From Verrucomicrobiota bacterium (GTDB lineage: Bacteria; Verrucomicrobiota; Verrucomicrobiia; JADLBR01): 64,000 nucleotides of DNA. Where the stretch lies: the NCBI GenBank assembly GCA_029560585.1, contig JAKQKQ010000190.1, forward strand, positions 1-64,000, in the 5' to 3' direction. Shown one piece after another: positions 1,416 through 12,612 of the stretch. The notes under the pieces were generated by a model. It was not told where the DNA came from. It saw nothing but the letters and a program-made list of their open reading frames with translations, and did no database searches. Each line of letters starts with the position of its first letter. The first letter of the stretch is position 1. A program made the translations under genes and the position numbers.

Positions 1416-2450
1416 ATGAAATACTCCGCCGCCCCAGATGCCACCGAACCCGCTGCGCTCGGAGCGACCACCATCGCCCGCCTCCTCGGCCACATTCGCA
1501 CAGCCCGCGCCGAGCTGGATCGCTTCAATCGCCTCGACCTCCCGGCCTACGACGAGTGGATGTCTGCCCGGTTCGGGACCCTCCTCGGGGCCGTGCGCGA
1601 ACTCCGCGCCCGCGCCGACGAGATACAAGACAACCTGGACCGCATCGACGGTCTGGCCTTTGAGGAGAATCTCCCCCACCACCGGGCCTACGCCCGCCTC
1701 TTCGACAACTACATCGGGCCCGAGTGGTTTGCCGAAGACACGGGCCTGCGGCTCAGCGACCTCGAGGCCGACGACGGGTCGCCCGAAGACGAGGGCGACG
1801 ATGACCCCTACCACGACCAACTCGCGGAGGCCTTCGCCGAACTCATGGGGCCCTACGCCGACCCGGACGAAGAGACCGCGGTGATCGCGGCCCGGGAGGA
1901 GCGCATGCGCATCTGCTACAGGCAACTCGCGCGCCGCCTCCACCCCGACCACCGCCAATCCGGCGACGGTGGCCCGTGGATCGAACTCTGGCACCAGGCC
2001 CAGGAAGCCTACAATCAGGGCGACGTCGCCCGCCTCGAGGTCCTGCTCACTCTGACCGAGATGGAGTCCGGCGAATTGGCCATGCCCAACGGGCGAGACG
2101 AGGCCGCCGCACTCATTAGGAAACTCCGCCACACGCTCGCCCACCTCAGCCAACAGATCGAGGCCGGCACCGCCCACGACGCCTGGAATTTCGCCTCGAG
2201 GACCGACCGCGCCCCGCTTGAACTATCGTTCGAGCGCGAAAAACTCCGGGAGCGACTCACGCTCGAGAGACGCGTTCTCGCGCTCGAGCGCAAGCTCAGG
2301 CGCTGGTCCCGGCCACCACGGATCGGGCCACCCCAGGCCTCCCGCCCGTCGTTCTCCGTCTCGGCGCGCGCGCGCCTCGGCGCCTGGATCCAGCTGGAGT
2401 TTCCGTTCGTCAAGGACCTCGACCGCCTCCACCCACTCCACCTCAATTGA
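1416..2450 (+). CDS. J-domain-like (DnaJ-type) protein
   Basis: A 344-residue soluble protein. The segment RQLARRLHPDH around residues 168-179 carries the HPD tripeptide (H176-D178) preceded by a basic helix, as in J-domains, which stimulate the ATPase of DnaK/Hsp70. The flanks are acidic or coiled: residues 1-110 are helical, about 110-150 are very acidic, and the C-terminal third is rich in Leu/Glu/Arg and predicted to coil. No zinc-finger or C-terminal substrate domain of classical DnaJ is seen, so this is a J-like protein, not DnaJ itself. AAGGA directly abuts the ATG. The gene overlaps the next one by 4 bases (TTGA), implying translational coupling. Confidence 0.6.
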   Translation: MKYSAAPDATEPAALGATTIARLLGHIRTARAELDRFNRLDLPAYDEWMSARFGTLLGAVRELRARADEIQDNLDRIDGLAFEENLPHHRAYARLFDNYIGPEWFAEDTGLRLSDLEADDGSPEDEGDDDPYHDQLAEAFAELMGPYADPDEETAVIAAREERMRICYRQLARRLHPDHRQSGDGGPWIELWHQAQEAYNQGDVARLEVLLTLTEMESGELAMPNGRDEAAALIRKLRHTLAHLSQQIEAGTAHDAWNFASRTDRAPLELSFEREKLRERLTLERRVLALERKLRRWSRPPRIGPPQASRPSFSVSARARLGAWIQLEFPFVKDLDRLHPLHLN

Positions 2451-4465
2451 GCAGGCCCCGCCGGATCACCAAGGACACGTCGGCGGTGCCCCGTCACGGC
2501 CACCGCCCCCGATGGGTGCGCGCTCGCCGCTGCCCGCGGTCGGCCCGGTCTCTTCCCATCATTGGAGCTGTCGCGCTTTGGGCCTCGCTCGCCCCGCGGG
2601 CGACCGCCTCGCCAGACACCTCCATTCCCCCACCCGCCCACGAAATCCACCGACTCATCGAGGGCGACTGGGCGGCCGCCTGCGGCCAGCTGCGCGCCGC
2701 TCTCATCGCCGCCTATTCGCCCCAGGCCTGCGAGTCCGACTCCTTCGCCGCCTGGCTCGACCTCCAGCGCTGGTTCGACCTCATAGCCCGCAACGAACTC
2801 GACGAGGTTGCGCGCCTCGCCTCGCGCCACCTCCGCTGGCAGCCCGCCGAACGCCGCATCATCGTCTCCCCGACCGGCGCCGCACCGCCCGCAGAGAACG
2901 TCGAACCGCTCTCGAACGAGATGCTCCAGCAAACGGTCAGGGATTCCCGATTCGCAGAATCTGCCCTCCCCGCCATCGCCCCCCGCGACTTCAAGCCCGC
3001 AGACCATCCCGTCGGACAACGGATCGAACGGCGCCGCCTCGAGGGGCTGCTGGCCGACGCCGAACTCGGACGGGAATTATTCCAGGCGCTCCGCGACGAG
3101 GACTTCCCGCCCCCCATCGTCGAGTTCCTCGCGCGTGCCCGCGAAGCCGCCCCCGATCTCTTCGCGCAATTCCGCCGCCTCGCCGTCGCGATCGCCGTCG
3201 TATATGATCAGCCGCCACCTCCCAACTGGCCACACCCCCAGGTCAAACCCGAGGCCGTGCCGCGCGTCCATCGCACCCCATTCGAGATCTACGGCTTCTG
3301 GATCCAGTGCCAGCAACTGGGCCGCCTCTTTCTGGACGTGCGCAGACTCGAGGTCGAGCAACTGACCCACGTCGTCGATGCCCCAGTCCGCGAGTCGGAA
3401 TTCATGTGGGCACAGGCACAGGTCACCCTGCCGCGCTACCGCTTCGCCGAAGCTTTCGACCTTGTCCGCTATGACCTCGATCGGCTCAGGAACCGGGCAT
3501 TCATCTGGCCGGGCGGCGACTACTCGCTCCGCTCGATCCATGCGGCCGGCGGCATCTGCGTGGACCAGGCGTACTTTGCCATGCTCGCCGGCAAGGCCAA
3601 GGGCCTGCCCACCCTCTTTTTCTCGGGACAGGGGCCCGATGGCGGCCACGCGTGGTTCGGCTTCATGAAACGCGACGATGCATGGCTACTGGACTGCGGC
3701 CGCGAGCGCAATCGCGGCGAACCCGTCGGCATCGCCCTCGACCCCCAGACGTGGCAGCCCATCAGCGACCACGACCTCAAGTTCCTCGCCAGCGGTTTCC
3801 GCGACACCGCCCCCTATCGCGTCTCGCGGCGGCACATCGCCGTGGCCCGCCTCTTCGCCCAGATCGGCGATCGCCGGCACCAGCTCTCCGCCCTCGAGAA
3901 CGCCATCGCCGCCTGCCCTCAAAACCCCGAAGCCTGGGACACCGTCACCACCCTCCTCCAGGCCAAGTGCTCTGAAACCCGGGCCCCGGCCGACCGCGAG
4001 GCTCTGCGCAAACACGCCGCGGACGCCGCCACCCAGTTCGCCTCGGAGACCGACATCCGCGTCCGCTATCAGCAGATGCTCGCCGACCTCGCCAGGGAAT
4101 CGGGTGATGTCGCAGAGGCCAACCGAATCACAGATGCCATCGTCCGCGAAAACCGGGGCGACCGCAGCGACCTCAGCGCCAAAGCCGCATGGCAACCACT
4201 GAAACACCTCCTCGACACGGGCGACATCCAGCGCGCCTACCCCGCCTACCGCAGTACCGTCGACCGGCTTGCGCGCACCGGCGGAGGCAATCTCTACTTC
4301 CAGATCGTCGTCCCATTTGTCTTGACCCTGCAGGATAAAGGCGAGACCGCCCTGGCTGAAGAGGCCCTTCTCATCGCGCGTAAAGCATTGCGCCCGAAAC
4401 CGTTGAGTCCTTTGGATACCCACATGGCCCAATTGCGGGATCGGTTGCGCCGCCCGGATCAATAA
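2447..4465 (+). CDS. Exported transglutaminase-like protein with C-terminal TPR-like region
   Basis: This 672-residue protein starts at a TTG that overlaps the stop of the upstream gene; no ATG exists nearby in frame. The N-terminus has a basic stretch and then a hydrophobic segment ending in an AxA-like site (about residues 30-55), which suggests export. The middle contains a papain-like transglutaminase core: GGICVDQAY with Cys371, GGHAWF with His401 and LLDCG with Asp416, correctly ordered for a Cys-His-Asp triad. After about residue 455 the sequence is helical and repeat-like (TPR-type). In bacteria such domains act as proteases or in cross-linking; the substrate is unknown. It sits just upstream of the penicillin-binding-protein fusion, so an envelope role is plausible. 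Confidence 0.6.
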   Translation: MSRPRRITKDTSAVPRHGHRPRWVRARRCPRSARSLPIIGAVALWASLAPRATASPDTSIPPPAHEIHRLIEGDWAAACGQLRAALIAAYSPQACESDSFAAWLDLQRWFDLIARNELDEVARLASRHLRWQPAERRIIVSPTGAAPPAENVEPLSNEMLQQTVRDSRFAESALPAIAPRDFKPADHPVGQRIERRRLEGLLADAELGRELFQALRDEDFPPPIVEFLARAREAAPDLFAQFRRLAVAIAVVYDQPPPPNWPHPQVKPEAVPRVHRTPFEIYGFWIQCQQLGRLFLDVRRLEVEQLTHVVDAPVRESEFMWAQAQVTLPRYRFAEAFDLVRYDLDRLRNRAFIWPGGDYSLRSIHAAGGICVDQAYFAMLAGKAKGLPTLFFSGQGPDGGHAWFGFMKRDDAWLLDCGRERNRGEPVGIALDPQTWQPISDHDLKFLASGFRDTAPYRVSRRHIAVARLFAQIGDRRHQLSALENAIAACPQNPEAWDTVTTLLQAKCSETRAPADREALRKHAADAATQFASETDIRVRYQQMLADLARESGDVAEANRITDAIVRENRGDRSDLSAKAAWQPLKHLLDTGDIQRAYPAYRSTVDRLARTGGGNLYFQIVVPFVLTLQDKGETALAEEALLIARKALRPKPLSPLDTHMAQLRDRLRRPDQ

Positions 4466-4534: not shown

Positions 4535-7500
4535 ATGCGACGAATTAGGAAAAGAAGGGAACCCCGAACCGCCTTTGGCCGGGGCGCCGACCCCGCATTG
4601 TGGGGCGAACCGCCACCACCGCGCCCAAAGGCCACTCTGGCCGTCTGGGTCAAGCGCATCTGCCTGGGCGGCATCATCGCCGCCACATGTGCCGTGGCCA
4701 TCTCCATCGCCGTCCTGGGGGCCCTCGCCGCGAAATATCGCGATGCCGCCGAAAAGATCGACCTTGCCCGCCTCAGCGAATTCAGCGAGACGACGATCTT
4801 CTACGACCGCCGAGGCCAGGAGATCGGCAGGCTCTTTTTCGAGGACCGCCAGGTCCTCCAACACCACGAGATACCCGACATAATGCGCTGGGCCATTCTC
4901 GCGGCCGAAGACGCCAACTTCTACAAGCACGGGGGGATCGATTACCGCGGCATTCTCCGGGCCGCGCTCGCCAATATCCGCAAGGGCCGGGCCACCCAGG
5001 GCGGCAGCACCATCACCCAGCAGCTCGCCAAACACGCCATCGGGATCTTTGCCAGAAAACTCGACCGCAAACTCACCGAGTTCTTCTTGGCCAAACGCAT
5101 CGAGGCCAAATTCTCTAAAGACGAGATCCTCGACCTCTACATCAACCGCATCTACTTCGGCAAGGGATACTACGGCCTCGCCGCCGCCGCCAACGGCTAT
5201 TTCCACAAGAAACCCCACGAGCTCACCCTGGGCGAGTGCGCCATGCTCGCCGGTATCGTGCGCGCCCCAAACACCTACTCCCCCCGCGGCAACATCGGGC
5301 GCGCCACCGAAAAGCGCAACCAGGTCCTGGATCGAATGATCGACGTCGGCTACATCAAGCACGCCCAGGCTGCCGAGGCCCGCGCCGAGAAGATCACCGT
5401 GCATGGCCCCGGCAACGCGGGCGTCTACTCGTTCCACATGGCCCAGGCCCTGAAGGAACTCCGGCAGATCCTCCAGGTCAGCCCCGAGGATGACGTCCCC
5501 GGCGGCCTCCGCGTCCACACCACCATCGACCTCGAACTCCAGAAGCTGGTCGAGCAATCCCTCGTGGCCAAACTCGCCACCGTCGAAGCCGCCCTCAAGA
5601 CCGCCGGCCCCGCGCGCCCTTCCGGCTCCGATCCGCTCGCCGAACTCGACACCAACCCAAACGATAAACCCGAAACGTCCCCCGCCGCCGAGCTGCCCCC
5701 CGGCACAGACACGGATCCCCTCCAGACGGCGTTCGTCTGCGTCGATGGCGAATCCGGCGCCATGCGCGTCCTCGTCGGAGGGCGCGATTTCAAGCAGAGC
5801 CAGTTCAACCGCGCCACCATGGCTCGGCGCGGCAACGCCTCCCTGCTCCAGCCCTTCTTCTATTCCCTCGCCATGCAGGACCTCTCGCTGCACCCGGCCT
5901 CCATGATCGACGCCACGTATCTGGATGAGACCCTCGCGTCCAAGGGCCAGGACACCGGTCTCGGCGATCCCCTCAAAGACATCTCGAAACGCTTCCTCAC
6001 GGTCCAGCAGGCCCTCGCCCTCGCCAATTCCTCGTGCGCCCTCCGCGTGGCCATCCAGCTCGGCCTACCGCGCATCGTCGGCTGGCTCGACGCCGCGGGC
6101 ATCAAACCCGAGACCCAGCCCAAATCGCTCGAGGATATCCCATCCCTCACGCTGGAGCAGATCGCCTCGCTCTATCAGGCGCTCGCCCACGGCGGCGTCC
6201 GCCGACGCCCCTATCTCATAGAGAAGATCACCAGCGCCGAGAACGAGGTCATGTACCAGTCCCAGGTCGATGCCGGTACCCGCATCGTCGACCCGCTCGT
6301 CGCCCAGCACATGACCCTCACGCTCCAGTCCGCAACCCGCGACGGCATCGGCCGCAGCCTCGCCATCGACCACGGCTTCGCGCAGCCCATCGCCAGCATG
6401 ACAGGCCGCTCGCCCAGGAACCGGGACGCCTGGTTCGTAGGCTACACCCCCGAACTGGTCGGCGCCCTCTGGGTCGGATACGACCAGCCCCGCCCGATCA
6501 CCGATGGCCCCGTCGTCCGAAACGTCGCTATCCCCCTCTGGGCCACCGCCATGGGCGAGGTCATCCGCCACATGCCCGCCGGCACCTCCTTCACGGTTCC
6601 CGATCAGCTCGCCAAGGTCGAGGTCGATCAGCGCACCGGCGTCATCCAGGGCCTCGGATTCCTCACCCCCGCCCCCGGCAACATCTTCGTCTATCTCCGC
6701 CGCGACCAGATCGACGAGGCACGGAAGGCTAGCCGCGAGACCGCCTCCCGCGTCCAGCAGCCCTCCGATTGGTCCAGTTGGCTGACCACCCTCCTCAACG
6801 AGGGCGACGAGTCCCCGAACAGGCCAACGCTCGGACTCCCCGGTGCCCGCGAGATCCCCCAGGTCGCGCGCTGCCGACTGCCCGCCCTCCGGGGCGACAT
6901 CCTCACACGAGATGGCCAACCGCTCGCCACCATGATCCAAAGCCAGAGCCTCGTGCTCAGGTGGCCCACCGACAGCAACTTCCACACGGAGGACGACTAC
7001 ATCCGCTGGGTCAAGGAACGGCTCGTCGATGCGTCCGAATGGGTCGCCGCCCCGATCCTGTTGCCCGAAGAGGACCTGCGAAACCAATTCCGCCTCCATC
7101 GCTTCCGCCCCCTGACGGTGGCCGAGAATGTCCCGCCCGAGCGCGTCACCGAATTCCCCAAGAGCCCACTGGTCCAACAGGGATTCGCGCTGCAGGGTGT
7201 CCCGCGCCGCTTCTACCCGAATGGCGCATTCTTCTCTCAATCCCTCGGCCACATCAAGCGCACCGCCACCGTCAACGACAGGGCCTACTACCCCGGCGAA
7301 CCCATCTACGACGATTACGAGGGCGCCTCGGGGCTCGAAAAACTCTTCGACACGGACCTCCGCGGCAAGGATGGCCAGATGACCATCGTCACCAATCCGG
7401 ACGGATTCCCAAGAAAGGCCTGGATCGACTGGCAGGCCACCACCGGCAATAACATTCGCACCACCATCGACCGCAGCCTCCAGACCGCCGCGGAGGATGC

Positions 7501-8572
7501 CATCGGCACGGTCCGCGCCGGCGCCGTCGTCGTCCTCGACGTCAACAACGGCGATGTCGTCGCCATGGCCTCCCAGCCCCAGTATAACCCGAACGACTTC
7601 ATCCCGTTCCTACCCGAGGAGCGCTGGCAAGAACTGGTCTCCTCCGAGAAGAATCCCCTCCTCAACCGCGCCTATCGCCAGCACCATCCTCCCGGCTCCG
7701 CGTTCAAGCTCGTCACATCACTCGCCGCCAGCCGCGCCGGTGTCCTGGATCCCAACCGAAAATTCACGGTCAACGGCTTTTTCGAGGTCGCCGGTCTCCG
7801 CTACGAGCTCCCCATCGAAAAAGATACTGTCTCGTATCAGGCCGCCCTCGCGCGGTCCTTCAACAGCTATTTCATGGACCTCGGTCTCCGGACGGGCCGC
7901 GAGACGCTCATCGATACCGCCCTCCAGTTCGGCATCGGCCGCGTCACCGGCTTCATCCTCCCCGGCGAGGTTCCGGGCCTCATGCCCGACTCCAACTTCA
8001 CCATGAAACGCCACCAGCGGATATTCGGCCCCGGCGATATCACCAACACCTCCATCGGCCAGGGCGATGTCCTCGTCACCCCCCTCCAGATGGCCAACCT
8101 CGTCGCCGCCATCGCAAACGGCGGGACCCTTTATCGCCCCCGCCTCGTGCGCCAGATCGAATCCCGCGGTGGCAAGACCACCAACCGCTTCGACCCCGCC
8201 GAAATCCGCCGGATCGAGATTGATCCCACGGCCCTGAACATCATCCGCGAGGCCATGGTCGCCGCAACCGAGTGGGGCACCGGTACGCGGGCGAAAGTCC
8301 CCGACGTCAAAGTCGCCTGTAAGACTGGCACCGCACAGATCGGCTCCAAACTCGCCCCGCGCCAGGTCGCCTGGATGGTCGGCTTCCTCCCCGCCGATCA
8401 GCCGCGCTACGCCTTCGCCGTCATGGTCGAGGGCGACTACGACCAGGACCTGCACGGTGGCTCTGACGCGGGCAGCCTCGTCGGCCAGATATTCAAGTCC
8501 GAACCGGTCAGGCCCCTCCTCACGGCCATGCCGCCCAAGGCGCAGCTCGTGAGCCCCAGCGATGGCCCCTGA
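4535..8572 (+). CDS. Penicillin-binding protein fusion: GT51 plus degenerate class A transpeptidase plus PBP2-type transpeptidase
   Basis: A continuous 1345-residue ORF. Residues about 38-62 form the only membrane anchor. A GT51 peptidoglycan glycosyltransferase follows, with intact motifs EDANFYKHGG (E125) and GGSTITQQ (157-163) plus the KDEILDLYIN region. Next comes a class A transpeptidase fold (about 395-640). Its motifs are altered: SxxK is SLLQ (S436, Q439), SxN is SSC (499-501) and KTG is MTG (622-624), although NRDAWFVGYTP is retained. From about residue 785 a PBP2-like half begins with the LRGDILTRDG pedestal motif and ends in a transpeptidase with SAFK (S1055, K1058), SFN (1108-1110) and KTGT (1263-1266), all intact. 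The protein should therefore polymerise glycan and cross-link with its second transpeptidase only. The normal length is about 650-850 for PBP1a and 600-650 for PBP2. Confidence 0.9.
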   Translation: MRRIRKRREPRTAFGRGADPALWGEPPPPRPKATLAVWVKRICLGGIIAATCAVAISIAVLGALAAKYRDAAEKIDLARLSEFSETTIFYDRRGQEIGRLFFEDRQVLQHHEIPDIMRWAILAAEDANFYKHGGIDYRGILRAALANIRKGRATQGGSTITQQLAKHAIGIFARKLDRKLTEFFLAKRIEAKFSKDEILDLYINRIYFGKGYYGLAAAANGYFHKKPHELTLGECAMLAGIVRAPNTYSPRGNIGRATEKRNQVLDRMIDVGYIKHAQAAEARAEKITVHGPGNAGVYSFHMAQALKELRQILQVSPEDDVPGGLRVHTTIDLELQKLVEQSLVAKLATVEAALKTAGPARPSGSDPLAELDTNPNDKPETSPAAELPPGTDTDPLQTAFVCVDGESGAMRVLVGGRDFKQSQFNRATMARRGNASLLQPFFYSLAMQDLSLHPASMIDATYLDETLASKGQDTGLGDPLKDISKRFLTVQQALALANSSCALRVAIQLGLPRIVGWLDAAGIKPETQPKSLEDIPSLTLEQIASLYQALAHGGVRRRPYLIEKITSAENEVMYQSQVDAGTRIVDPLVAQHMTLTLQSATRDGIGRSLAIDHGFAQPIASMTGRSPRNRDAWFVGYTPELVGALWVGYDQPRPITDGPVVRNVAIPLWATAMGEVIRHMPAGTSFTVPDQLAKVEVDQRTGVIQGLGFLTPAPGNIFVYLRRDQIDEARKASRETASRVQQPSDWSSWLTTLLNEGDESPNRPTLGLPGAREIPQVARCRLPALRGDILTRDGQPLATMIQSQSLVLRWPTDSNFHTEDDYIRWVKERLVDASEWVAAPILLPEEDLRNQFRLHRFRPLTVAENVPPERVTEFPKSPLVQQGFALQGVPRRFYPNGAFFSQSLGHIKRTATVNDRAYYPGEPIYDDYEGASGLEKLFDTDLRGKDGQMTIVTNPDGFPRKAWIDWQATTGNNIRTTIDRSLQTAAEDAIGTVRAGAVVVLDVNNGDVVAMASQPQYNPNDFIPFLPEERWQELVSSEKNPLLNRAYRQHHPPGSAFKLVTSLAASRAGVLDPNRKFTVNGFFEVAGLRYELPIEKDTVSYQAALARSFNSYFMDLGLRTGRETLIDTALQFGIGRVTGFILPGEVPGLMPDSNFTMKRHQRIFGPGDITNTSIGQGDVLVTPLQMANLVAAIANGGTLYRPRLVRQIESRGGKTTNRFDPAEIRRIEIDPTALNIIREAMVAATEWGTGTRAKVPDVKVACKTGTAQIGSKLAPRQVAWMVGFLPADQPRYAFAVMVEGDYDQDLHGGSDAGSLVGQIFKSEPVRPLLTAMPPKAQLVSPSDGP

Positions 8573-8612: not shown

Positions 8613-10499
8613 ATGAATGCCCCCCAAGAGGCCGAACCCCGCAAGTCCCACGCCGCTGTCCTCGGGGCCCTCGGGGTCGTGTTCGGCGACATCGGCACAA
8701 GCCCCCTATACGCCCTCAGGGAGTGCTTCACGGGCCAACATGGGCTGCCCGCACAACCCGAGATCATCCTCGGCGTCATGTCCATGGTGTTCTGGACGCT
8801 GGTCCTCGTCATCTCGATCAAGTACCAGGCCCTGGTGCTGCGGGCTGACAACCGTGGCGAAGGGGGGATCCTCGCCCTGATGGCGCTCGTCACCGCGCAC
8901 TTTCGCTCCGGCGGCAAGCGCTGGCGATCGTTCACCGTCCTGGGCATCTTCGGCGCATCCCTGCTCCTCGCCGATGCCATGATCACCCCGGCTATCTCCG
9001 TGCTCGGTGCCGTCGAGGGTCTCGGTGCCGTCAGGGCGGCGTGGCATCCGTGGATCCTCCCCCTCTCGATTGGCATCCTCGTGATCTTGTTCGCAAACCA
9101 GCACCGGGGCACCGGCCAGATCGGGCTCATCTTCGGCCCCGTCATGATGGTCTGGTTTCTGGTCCTTGGCGCGCTCGGCCTCGCCTCGCTCGTGAAAAAC
9201 CCTTCGGCGCTGTGCGCCATCGACCCGCGCCATGCCATCGGCATCTGTTTCAGCGACCCGACCCGCGCCTTCGTCGTCCTCGGTTCGGTGTTCCTCACCG
9301 TCACCGGCGCCGAGGCCATGTACGCCGACATGGGCCACTTCGGCACCCGGGCGATCCGCACCGGATGGTTCGCCATCTCTATGCCCGGCCTGCTGCTCAA
9401 TTACTTCGGCCAAGGCGCCCTCCTCCTCCGCGACCCCGGCGCCGCCGAACACCTGTTCTACGCGGTGGCACCGCCATGGGCGCGCCCCGCCCTACTCGTC
9501 TTGGCCACCGTCGCGACCATGATCGCGTCCCAGTCCGTCATCGCAGGAGCGTTTTCCTTGGCCACGCAGGCGGTCCAGCTCGACCTCACGCCCAGGCTCA
9601 TGGTCCGGCGCACCTCCGCGCACGCCTACGGGCAGGTCTACGTCCCGGCCATCAACTGGCTGCTCATGGTCGGCACCGTCTATCTGGCAATCGAGTTCGG
9701 CTCCTCTTCGAATCTCGCCGCAGCCTATGGCGTGGCGGTCTCGCTCGACATGACCATCACCACCCTGCTGCTTGCCATCGCCGCTTACACCGTCTGGGGA
9801 TGGACGCCGTGGAAGGTCGCCGCCATCATCGCCGTCTTTCTGCCCCTGGACACCGCCTTCGTCTCTTCCAACCTCGTCAAGATCGCCTCCGGCGGTTGGC
9901 TGCCGCTGCTCGTCGCCCTCCTGGGCACGACCGTCATGACCACGTGGTCCCGCGGCCGTGCCCTCGTCCGCCGCCGCATGGAGCTGGACATTCCCGAGCT
10001 GGAGATTTTCCTCAAAGACATCCGTCGCCGGAAACCGCACCGCGTCCAGGGCACCGCCGTGTTTCTCACGGAAGACGCGAGGCGCGTCCCGCGCGCGCTG
10101 CTCCACAATTTCCTCCACAACAGGATCGTCCACGAGAACGTCCTGCTCCTCAGCGTGCGAACCACGCTGGAACCCACCGTCTCCGACACCGACCGGATCA
10201 GGGCCGAGGATCTCGGCGATGGCATCCACAGGGTCACGCTGCATTACGGATTCATGCAGCAGCCCAACGTCCCGAGGGACCTCGCCCTGCTCGCCGAAGG
10301 AATCCGCCCCGCCCCCCAGACCACCTCCTACTTCCTCGGGCGCGTCCAGGTCAGCCTCCGGCACGAGGGCAAGAGCGACATGGCCATCTGGCGCCGCGGC
10401 CTCTTCGCGTGGCTCGCCCGCAACGCCATGAACACCCCAGACTATTTCCGCCTGCCCCACAATCGGGTCATCGAGCTTGGCGCCCTCGTCCCGCTCTAG
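8613..10499 (+). CDS. kup: Kup-family low-affinity K+ uptake protein (first copy)
   Basis: A 628-residue inner-membrane protein matching the Kup/HAK/KT family in length and layout. It has about twelve hydrophobic segments in the first 440 residues, the N-terminal signature GVVFGDIGTSPLYALREC, and a hydrophilic cytoplasmic tail. Kup proteins import K+ with H+. The ATG lies 40 bases after the penicillin-binding-protein gene, so cotranscription is possible. A close paralogue follows 227 bases downstream. The two copies are collinear with matching ends (ELGALVPL) but differ throughout, so this is an old tandem duplication, not an assembly artefact. Confidence 0.93.
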   Translation: MNAPQEAEPRKSHAAVLGALGVVFGDIGTSPLYALRECFTGQHGLPAQPEIILGVMSMVFWTLVLVISIKYQALVLRADNRGEGGILALMALVTAHFRSGGKRWRSFTVLGIFGASLLLADAMITPAISVLGAVEGLGAVRAAWHPWILPLSIGILVILFANQHRGTGQIGLIFGPVMMVWFLVLGALGLASLVKNPSALCAIDPRHAIGICFSDPTRAFVVLGSVFLTVTGAEAMYADMGHFGTRAIRTGWFAISMPGLLLNYFGQGALLLRDPGAAEHLFYAVAPPWARPALLVLATVATMIASQSVIAGAFSLATQAVQLDLTPRLMVRRTSAHAYGQVYVPAINWLLMVGTVYLAIEFGSSSNLAAAYGVAVSLDMTITTLLLAIAAYTVWGWTPWKVAAIIAVFLPLDTAFVSSNLVKIASGGWLPLLVALLGTTVMTTWSRGRALVRRRMELDIPELEIFLKDIRRRKPHRVQGTAVFLTEDARRVPRALLHNFLHNRIVHENVLLLSVRTTLEPTVSDTDRIRAEDLGDGIHRVTLHYGFMQQPNVPRDLALLAEGIRPAPQTTSYFLGRVQVSLRHEGKSDMAIWRRGLFAWLARNAMNTPDYFRLPHNRVIELGALVPL

Positions 10500-10725: not shown

Positions 10726-12612
10726 ATGACCAGTGCAGCCGACCCGCATCGACCCATGCAGCGCGGCCTCGTGCTCGCGGCGCTGGGCGTCGTCTTCGGC
10801 GACATCGGAACCAGCCCCCTCTACGCGCTCAGGGAATGCTTCACGGGTCACCAGGGGCTCCCGCTCGCGGCCGACACGATCCTCGGTGTGCTGTCCATGG
10901 TCACGTGGACGCTCCTGCTCGTGATTTCGGTCAAATACATGATCTTGGTGCTGCGTGCAAACAACCGGGGCGAGGGCGGAGTCCTCGCTCTCATGGCGCT
11001 GGTCACGACCTACTTCCGCCAGGGCGGGCGGCGATGGCGATCCATCACGGTGCTCGGCATCTTTGGCGCATCGCTCCTGGTGGCTGACGCCATGATCACA
11101 CCGGCGATCTCGGTGCTCGGCGCCATGGAGGGCATCGGGGCAATGAAGCCCCATTGGAGCGGCCTCGTGCTGCCCGCTTCCATCGGTATCCTCGTGGCCC
11201 TCTTTGCCACGCAGCGCTTTGGAACCGGTCGCATCGGCATGGTCTTTGGGCCGGTCATCGTCATCTGGTTCCTGGCCCTCGGCCTGATCGGCCTCTGGCA
11301 AGTGTTCGCTTCCCCATCGGTGCTTGTGGCATTCGATCCGCGACACGCGATCGGCTTGTGCATGCATCATCCCGGCCATGCCTTCGCCGTCCTCGGCTCG
11401 GTCTTCCTGACCGTCACCGGTGCCGAGGCCATGTACGCCGACATGGGCCACTTCGGCACCCGGGCGATCCAGACCGGCTGGTTCCGCATCGCGCTCCCGG
11501 GCCTGCTGCTCAATTACTTTGGCCAAGCCGCGGTCCTGCTGCGCGATCCCGCCACCGCCCCACACCTGTTCTACGAGACCGCCCCCCCGTGGTCCCGCCC
11601 GGCCCTGATCGTGCTCGCGACGATCGCCACCGTCATCGCGTCCCAGGCCGTCATCTCAGGGACCTTTTCGCTCGCCACCCAGGCCGTCCAACTCGATCTC
11701 ACCCCGCGCCTCGTCGTCCAGCGCACTTCGGCCACCGCCTACGGGCAGGTCTACGTCCCGATGATCAACTGGATGCTCATGGTCGGAACCGTCTACCTCA
11801 TGCTGGAGTTCAGATCCTCCTCGAACTTGGCCGCCGCCTACGGCATCGCGGTTTCCATCAACATGCTCTTCACGACCCTGCTCCTGGCCGTGGCCGCGCA
11901 CCTGATCTGGCGGTGGCCCATCTGGCGCGTCGCCCTCGCCCTGCTCGCCTTCGTGGCGATCGACGCCCTCTTCGTGGCGTCAAACCTCCTGAAAATCGAA
12001 TCCGGCGGCTGGATCCCTCTCTTGATAGCCGCCGCTGGCACCGCCATCATGACGACGTGGTCTCGCGGCCGCGCCCTCGTCCGCGCGCGCATGGAAAAGG
12101 ACATCCCCGACCTCGAGGTCTTCCTCCGCGATGTCAGGCGCCTTGAGGGCGCTCGCATCCCCGGGACCGCCGTCTATTTCACCGAGGATCCCACCCGAGC
12201 CCCCCGCGCCTGGCTCCATAACTTCATACACAATCGCGCCCTGCATCAGTCCGTCATCCTCCTGACCATCAAGAGTTCCCTCGAGCCCTACGCCGACGAG
12301 GAAGATCGCATCACCTGCGAAGACCTTGGCGACCGCATATTTCGCGTCGCCGTGACCTACGGGTTCATGGAGCAACCCGATGTCCCAAAGGCCCTGGCGT
12401 CCCTTCCCGATGACGTGAGGCCCCAGCCCAACCGCACATCCTACTTCCTCGGACGCGTCCAGGTCAGCCTCCGGCACGAGGGCAAACGCGATATGGCCTT
12501 CTGGCGCCGTGGCCTCTTCGCGTGGCTCGCCCGCAACGCCATGAACACCCCCGATTACTTCCGACTCCCACCCAATCGCGTCGTCGAACTCGGCGCGCTG
12601 GTGCCCCTCTGA
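10726..12612 (+). CDS. kup: Kup-family low-affinity K+ uptake protein (second copy)
   Basis: Also 628 residues, collinear with the upstream copy, with the same N-terminal GVVFGDIGTSPLYALREC block and the same C-terminal LFAWLARNAMNTPDYFRLP block. The membrane segments and cytoplasmic tail correspond one to one, so it should also be a K+/H+ symporter. The copies differ most near the N-terminus and in the tail, which could give different affinity or regulation. The palindromic element between them probably separates their transcription. No K+-responsive regulator is visible nearby. Confidence 0.93.
   Translation: MTSAADPHRPMQRGLVLAALGVVFGDIGTSPLYALRECFTGHQGLPLAADTILGVLSMVTWTLLLVISVKYMILVLRANNRGEGGVLALMALVTTYFRQGGRRWRSITVLGIFGASLLVADAMITPAISVLGAMEGIGAMKPHWSGLVLPASIGILVALFATQRFGTGRIGMVFGPVIVIWFLALGLIGLWQVFASPSVLVAFDPRHAIGLCMHHPGHAFAVLGSVFLTVTGAEAMYADMGHFGTRAIQTGWFRIALPGLLLNYFGQAAVLLRDPATAPHLFYETAPPWSRPALIVLATIATVIASQAVISGTFSLATQAVQLDLTPRLVVQRTSATAYGQVYVPMINWMLMVGTVYLMLEFRSSSNLAAAYGIAVSINMLFTTLLLAVAAHLIWRWPIWRVALALLAFVAIDALFVASNLLKIESGGWIPLLIAAAGTAIMTTWSRGRALVRARMEKDIPDLEVFLRDVRRLEGARIPGTAVYFTEDPTRAPRAWLHNFIHNRALHQSVILLTIKSSLEPYADEEDRITCEDLGDRIFRVAVTYGFMEQPDVPKALASLPDDVRPQPNRTSYFLGRVQVSLRHEGKRDMAFWRRGLFAWLARNAMNTPDYFRLPPNRVVELGALVPL

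Follow-up and report, generated by a model that had tools for sequence, protein, structure and literature searches.

Organization of the fused protein

Class A penicillin-binding proteins (PBPs) and PBP2 are normally separate proteins. In the window, by which we mean the whole 64,000-nucleotide stretch of DNA analyzed here, units of both kinds are encoded in one long ORF (the fusion), whose middle and last transpeptidase domains are referred to as TP1 and TP2:

4535..8572 (+), whole fusion ORF, 1345 aa, ATG start, 0 internal stops; a single ORF in 17 genomes
4637..4738 (+), sole N-terminal membrane anchor, about aa 35-68; only Kyte-Doolittle segment >1.5
4823..5338 (+), GT51 transglycosylase, aa 97-268; Pfam PF00912 (Transgly), E 2.2e-60
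4907..4936 (+), GT51 motif 1, EDANFYKHGG, with catalytic Glu125; Glu/Asp/His invariant in 16 fusions and 15 stand-alone class A PBPs
5000..5035 (+), GT51 motif 2, GGSTITQQLAKH, kept among fusions
5066..5080 (+), GT51 motif 3, RKLTE, with second conserved Glu182; Lys179 and Glu182 invariant
5720..6649 (+), inactive class A transpeptidase domain TP1, aa 396-705; Pfam, TIGR02074, motif alignment and structure matches; dN/dS ~0.1
5840..5851 (+), broken SxxK, S436-L-L-Q439; alignment to class A relatives
6023..6031 (+), broken SxN, A497-N-S499; alignment to class A relatives
6398..6406 (+), broken KTG, M622-T-G; alignment to class A relatives
6650..6871 (+), linker, aa 706-779, without transmembrane segment; helices and low-confidence loops in models
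6878..7405 (+), PBP dimerisation (pedestal) domain, aa 782-957; Pfam PF03717 (PBP_dimer), E 3.7e-19
7520..8494 (+), PBP2-like transpeptidase TP2, aa 996-1320; Pfam PF00905, Foldseek matches to PBP2 structures
7697..7708 (+), intact SxxK, S1055-A-F-K1058; motif reading
7856..7864 (+), intact SxN, S1108-F-N; motif reading
8321..8329 (+), intact KTG, K1263-T-G; motif reading

An initial sequence-only reading had described one unbroken ORF with a single N-terminal anchor and three recognizable units, and the Pfam and TIGR02074 domain matches, together with the one hydrophobic segment of the 1345-aa product, agree with that description. The Pfam Transpeptidase model (E 2e-71) has its best stretch at aa 996-1320 and a second, weaker one in the middle domain, TIGR02074 covers aa 105-677 including the middle domain (E 5e-149), and PBP1a structures align through TP1 in sequence comparison. 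By Kyte-Doolittle analysis, aa 70-780 contain no hydrophobic segment, and a transmembrane helix directly before the pedestal is absent. AlphaFold models of aa 60-995 (pLDDT 80.9, pTM 0.57) and aa 396-1335 (pLDDT 85.6, pTM 0.63) gave confident domains with an uncertain mutual arrangement. Foldseek matched the GT51-TP1 part to PBP1b/PBP1a (E 4e-33) and the C-terminal half to PBP2 (E 5e-40).

Conservation and distribution

Searches of 384 genomes of the class Verrucomicrobiia recovered the fusion in 17, spanning six family codes and eight genus codes; nearly all of these are draft assemblies, and some of the 17 fusions are cut by contig ends. Here and below, orders are inferred from group codes, and genome content from searches and fetched stretches. 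The genome under study (G000) carries a second copy on contig C104, a 1380-codon frame 47% identical to the first, and a sister genome (G001) holds orthologues of both, the first 85% identical over its full length and the second cut at a contig end. The only near-full-length public match came from JADLBR01 isolate SJ186, a Verrucomicrobiia bacterium (85% identical). Two equal-scoring copies in G135 (C9:26217-30047 and C10:119462-123292) represent either a recent duplicate or an assembly duplication.

No fusion was found outside the class among 388 genomes drawn evenly from the phylum, a sample in which rare cases could be missed; the only matches at E <1e-140 there were those of G000, G008, and G042, which all belong to the class. 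Gemmatimonadota and Shapirobacteria gave long matches (L029, L037, L050, L062, L063, and L074), but these were rejected as fusions in other phyla, being tandem pairs of ordinary class A PBPs. The fusion was undescribed in the literature searched, in which most subscription journals were missing.

The fusion is conserved and real, and not an artefact. Sequencing, frameshift, or assembly error is ruled out by its presence as one ORF in 17 genomes, and close relatives with two adjacent ORFs, an arrangement at odds with the initial reading, were looked for and not found. Contamination of the draft genome is unlikely because G001 has orthologues of both copies, and a pseudogene is ruled out by the dN/dS ratios given below.

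The middle transpeptidase

Column-by-column alignment showed TP1 to be without the Lys of SxxK, the Asn of SxN, and the Lys of KTG in 16 of 16 fusions, which extends to the relatives the three losses originally noticed in the window copy. Gln occupies the SxxK Lys position in 14 of the 16, with Tyr or Ser in the remaining two; the SxxK Ser position is Ala in 11, Ser in four, and Tyr in one, and the KTG Lys position is Met in 15 and Tyr in one. The window copy keeps Ser436, and alignment to class A relatives confirmed the replacement of its SxxK Lys by Gln439 and of its KTG Lys by Met622. For SxN, the loss of Asn stands, but the register first assigned (Ser499-x-Cys501) was two residues off; the true position is Ala497-Asn498-Ser499, at which both Ser and Asn are lost. 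Residues such as Met622, Leu438, Asp482, Gln491, and Gln548 are conserved among the fusions, whereas stand-alone class A PBPs do not conserve them.

TP1 is constrained, under purifying selection. Its dN/dS was 0.113, 0.110, 0.103, and 0.110 in the four close pairs that cover it fully and 0.193 in a fifth (57-codon part only), alongside 0.07-0.13 for GT51 and 0.04-0.20 for TP2 in close pairs; these values are approximate because some dS exceed 1, near saturation. With catalytic residues lost, fold conserved, and purifying selection acting, TP1 has the properties of a pseudo-transpeptidase, and no fusion read carries in this attached domain the SxxK, SxN, and KTG of a class A transpeptidase.

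The GT51 and PBP2-like modules

Glu125, Asp126, His132, Lys179, and Glu182 of the GT51 domain are invariant in the aligned fusions (n = 16), and the fusion has in this respect the GT51 with catalytic motifs of a class A PBP. At the other end of the protein, TP2 has an intact SxxK in all fusions read, an intact SxN in all except that of G167 (SYD), and KTG or, in G003, KSG. A pedestal and a transpeptidase with three motifs, as in PBP2/MrdA, are present. The initial reading had likewise taken the last transpeptidase to have all three motifs; in the window copy they are S1055AFK, S1108FN, and K1263TGT, and the motifs of both GT51 and TP2 are kept across fusions.

Relation to other wall enzymes

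A search for stand-alone mrdA, rodA, and class A PBPs elsewhere in the genome found all of them. A separate mrdA adjoins rodA on C271, ftsI and ftsW are on C2, and there are three further class A PBPs (C5, C284, and C155) plus a 246-codon GT51 frame on C304. The fusion is an addition to these enzymes and not a replacement. A reading of its last unit as the organism's own PBP2 is not supported, given the separate mrdA by rodA and the position of the fused half in a separate PBP2-like clade.

In the tree, the fused PBP2 halves form one clade that includes an unfused protein of G042 (support 100/100); their sister is a set of stand-alone PBP2-like proteins (joint branch 99/100), and mrdA genes lie outside. 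The fused N-terminal halves also form one clade (100/100), which intact class A PBPs separate from a second dead type. Profile scores were 497.6 bits for TIGR02074 (PBP1A family), just below the curated NCBIfam cut-off of 508.75, and 413.9 bits for TIGR03423 (MrdA), below the curated cut-off of 455. Measured against MrdA, the fused half is without its own membrane helix before the pedestal, does not group with mrdA, and falls short of the curated cut-off. Since defining features of both fail, we file the fusion as neither a class A PBP nor an MrdA.

The fusion shares with class A PBPs (PBP1a/PBP1b, TIGR02074) the N-terminal anchor, a GT51 with conserved Glu residues, and the transpeptidase fold, its nearest solved sequence relatives being PBP1a (4oon, 3udf) and its nearest folds PBP1b (5hlb, 3vma), but it has lost SxxK, SxN, and KTG in TP1 and has a whole PBP2-type module added behind. 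With PBP2/MrdA (TIGR03423; nearest solved 8yjx, 7kis, and 6g9p) it has in common the pedestal and transpeptidase with three motifs, whereas the fused half has no membrane helix of its own and lies in a clade apart from the genome's mrdA. The stand-alone secreted PBP2-like proteins of the class, sisters of the fused half, also have intact motifs but are encoded by a separate gene with an apparent signal peptide. As in RodA-PBP2 and FtsW-FtsI (SEDS plus class B PBP), a glycan polymerase is coupled to a class B-type transpeptidase; in the fusion, however, the polymerase is GT51 rather than SEDS and is covalently joined. By its motifs, the fusion most likely acts as a class A and a class B enzyme joined into one synthase.

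A possible two-protein counterpart

By eye, the stand-alone PBP2-like proteins have no anchor and appear to start with a signal peptide whose end is an A-x-A-like site, although some of their N-termini are long and hard to interpret. An elongasome operon was considered for their genes and was not seen in the four loci checked, where the neighbors were not mre or rod genes. In those genomes, the catalytic Ser of one type of class A PBP is replaced by Thr in every sequence read (43 of 43, L242-L284). Most of these sequences have also lost the SxxK Lys; where it remains, the Thr nucleophile might still support some activity. All 43 genomes with this Thr-type class A PBP also hold a stand-alone PBP2-like protein. 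The pair resembles a version of the fusion divided between two proteins. The combination of a class A polymerase whose own crosslinker is disabled with this kind of PBP2-like crosslinker would thus exist both as separate proteins and within a single chain.

A dead class A PBP and a secreted PBP2-like protein occur together only within what seems to be a single order, where they appear to have been inherited jointly, and for their co-occurrence we therefore do not assume many independent events; the two-protein state is probably one inherited state. A single class A inactivation shared with the fusions was not rejected (AU p = 0.0875). The unfused, secreted-looking PBP2-like protein of G042 (L167:4853-6784) falls inside the fusion clade and possibly arose by fission, an origin that the tree favors by this nesting, though not significantly (AU p = 0.10).

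Proposed mode of action and alternatives

Bifunctional class A PBPs on the one hand and pairs of a SEDS protein with a class B PBP on the other are treated as the two routes by which bacteria build crosslinked wall. The best reading of the fusion is the self-contained polymerase/cross-linker originally proposed, which is supported by the conserved fusion, the dead TP1, and the intact GT51 and TP2 motifs. We consider it probable that the protein is a three-module peptidoglycan synthase without a SEDS partner. The membrane-anchored N-terminal GT51 would polymerise lipid II, TP1 would be kept beside it as a non-catalytic body or support, and the PBP2-type TP2 behind would crosslink the product. 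Because the PBP2 half has no membrane anchor of its own, it would need the fusion for its placement beside the polymerase. We thus infer activity of GT51 and TP2, a scaffold role for TP1, and independence of the synthase from SEDS proteins; it would work alongside the RodA-PBP2 and FtsW-FtsI of the same cell.

The fusion might instead be processed after export, leaving the PBP2 half as a free periplasmic transpeptidase, with fusion just ensuring equal amounts of the two. The unfused sisters, with an apparent signal peptide and without an anchor, are consistent with this, as are the unfused secreted copy in G042, the low-confidence loops of the linker, and the linker being less conserved than every other part in three of the five close pairs. 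Yet one ORF is retained in all 17 genomes, and the linker has conserved stretches (e.g., the W-S-D-W-L region) and is under purifying selection in five of five pairs (dN/dS 0.07-0.22), which makes processing unlikely. That the dead TP1 is a functionless evolutionary leftover, tolerated as a spacer, would fit the loss of all its catalytic motifs and of a held Ser (Ala in 11 and Tyr in one of 16); we regard this as quite improbable, given a dN/dS of ~0.1, as low as in the catalytic domains, and the positions held in fusions only (such as Met622, Leu438, Asp482, Gln491, and Gln548).

In known RodA-PBP2 complexes, the PBP2 transmembrane helix contacts RodA. The fused half has an intact pedestal, and RodA and FtsW are both present, so that it could still work with RodA or another SEDS polymerase, GT51 being a second polymerase in the same complex. 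The missing transmembrane helix before this half and the separate class B partner that the genome already provides for each SEDS protein argue against such a complex, and we hold it to be very unlikely.

The fusion shows that two wall enzymes, normally separate, can be one machine. If the three-module synthase is correct, this class A-class B fusion separates the two roles of TP1, catalysis and polymerase support, makes the coupling of polymerisation and crosslinking testable in one construct, and provides a class B-type crosslinker without a SEDS partner.

Genes flanking the fusion

Six fusion loci (the second copy of G000, G130, G088, G083, G135, and G003) share their immediate upstream neighbor, each time a member of a single protein family that seems to start with a signal peptide:

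L153:4743-7181, Lon-like protein directly upstream of fusion
L156:9140-11338, Lon-like protein directly upstream of fusion
L161:9431-11890, Lon-like protein directly upstream of fusion
L162:3237-5387, Lon-like protein directly upstream of fusion
L163:8986-11115, Lon-like protein directly upstream of fusion
L164:7030-9045, Lon-like protein directly upstream of fusion

The family profile matched the Lon protease domain weakly (1xhk, E 1e-4; best Lon_C, E 6e-4), and by eye the protease Ser and Lys of this Lon-like (S16) protein are apparently not conserved. The family occurs in 16 of 369 genomes, a draw from which two fusion genomes may have been absent, and 14 of the 16 have the fusion (Fisher p ~1e-20, uncorrected for kinship). 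A different gene (2447-4465) precedes the window copy, but the Lon-like family has another member in G000, on C120. We suggest, tentatively, that the class may use a third kind of wall synthase in addition to the two named above, in which a GT51 polymerase whose transpeptidase is disabled leaves crosslinking to a PBP2-like enzyme that has no anchor. One order would have this synthase as two proteins and others as one chain, and the secreted Lon-like protein would serve specifically to regulate the fused form.

The ORF at 2447-4465, just upstream of the window copy, encodes 672 aa without a Pfam match and has no detectable similarity to the usual upstream partner. Downstream genes vary among fusion loci. 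Three fusions have a related Cache-PAS sensor protein downstream (L164:896-3103, L162:9232-10353, and L155:4085-5143), one of which is a histidine kinase with a receiver. In the window, tandem similar 628-aa membrane proteins lie downstream (8613-10499 and 10726-12612) and resemble Kup potassium transporters by eye.
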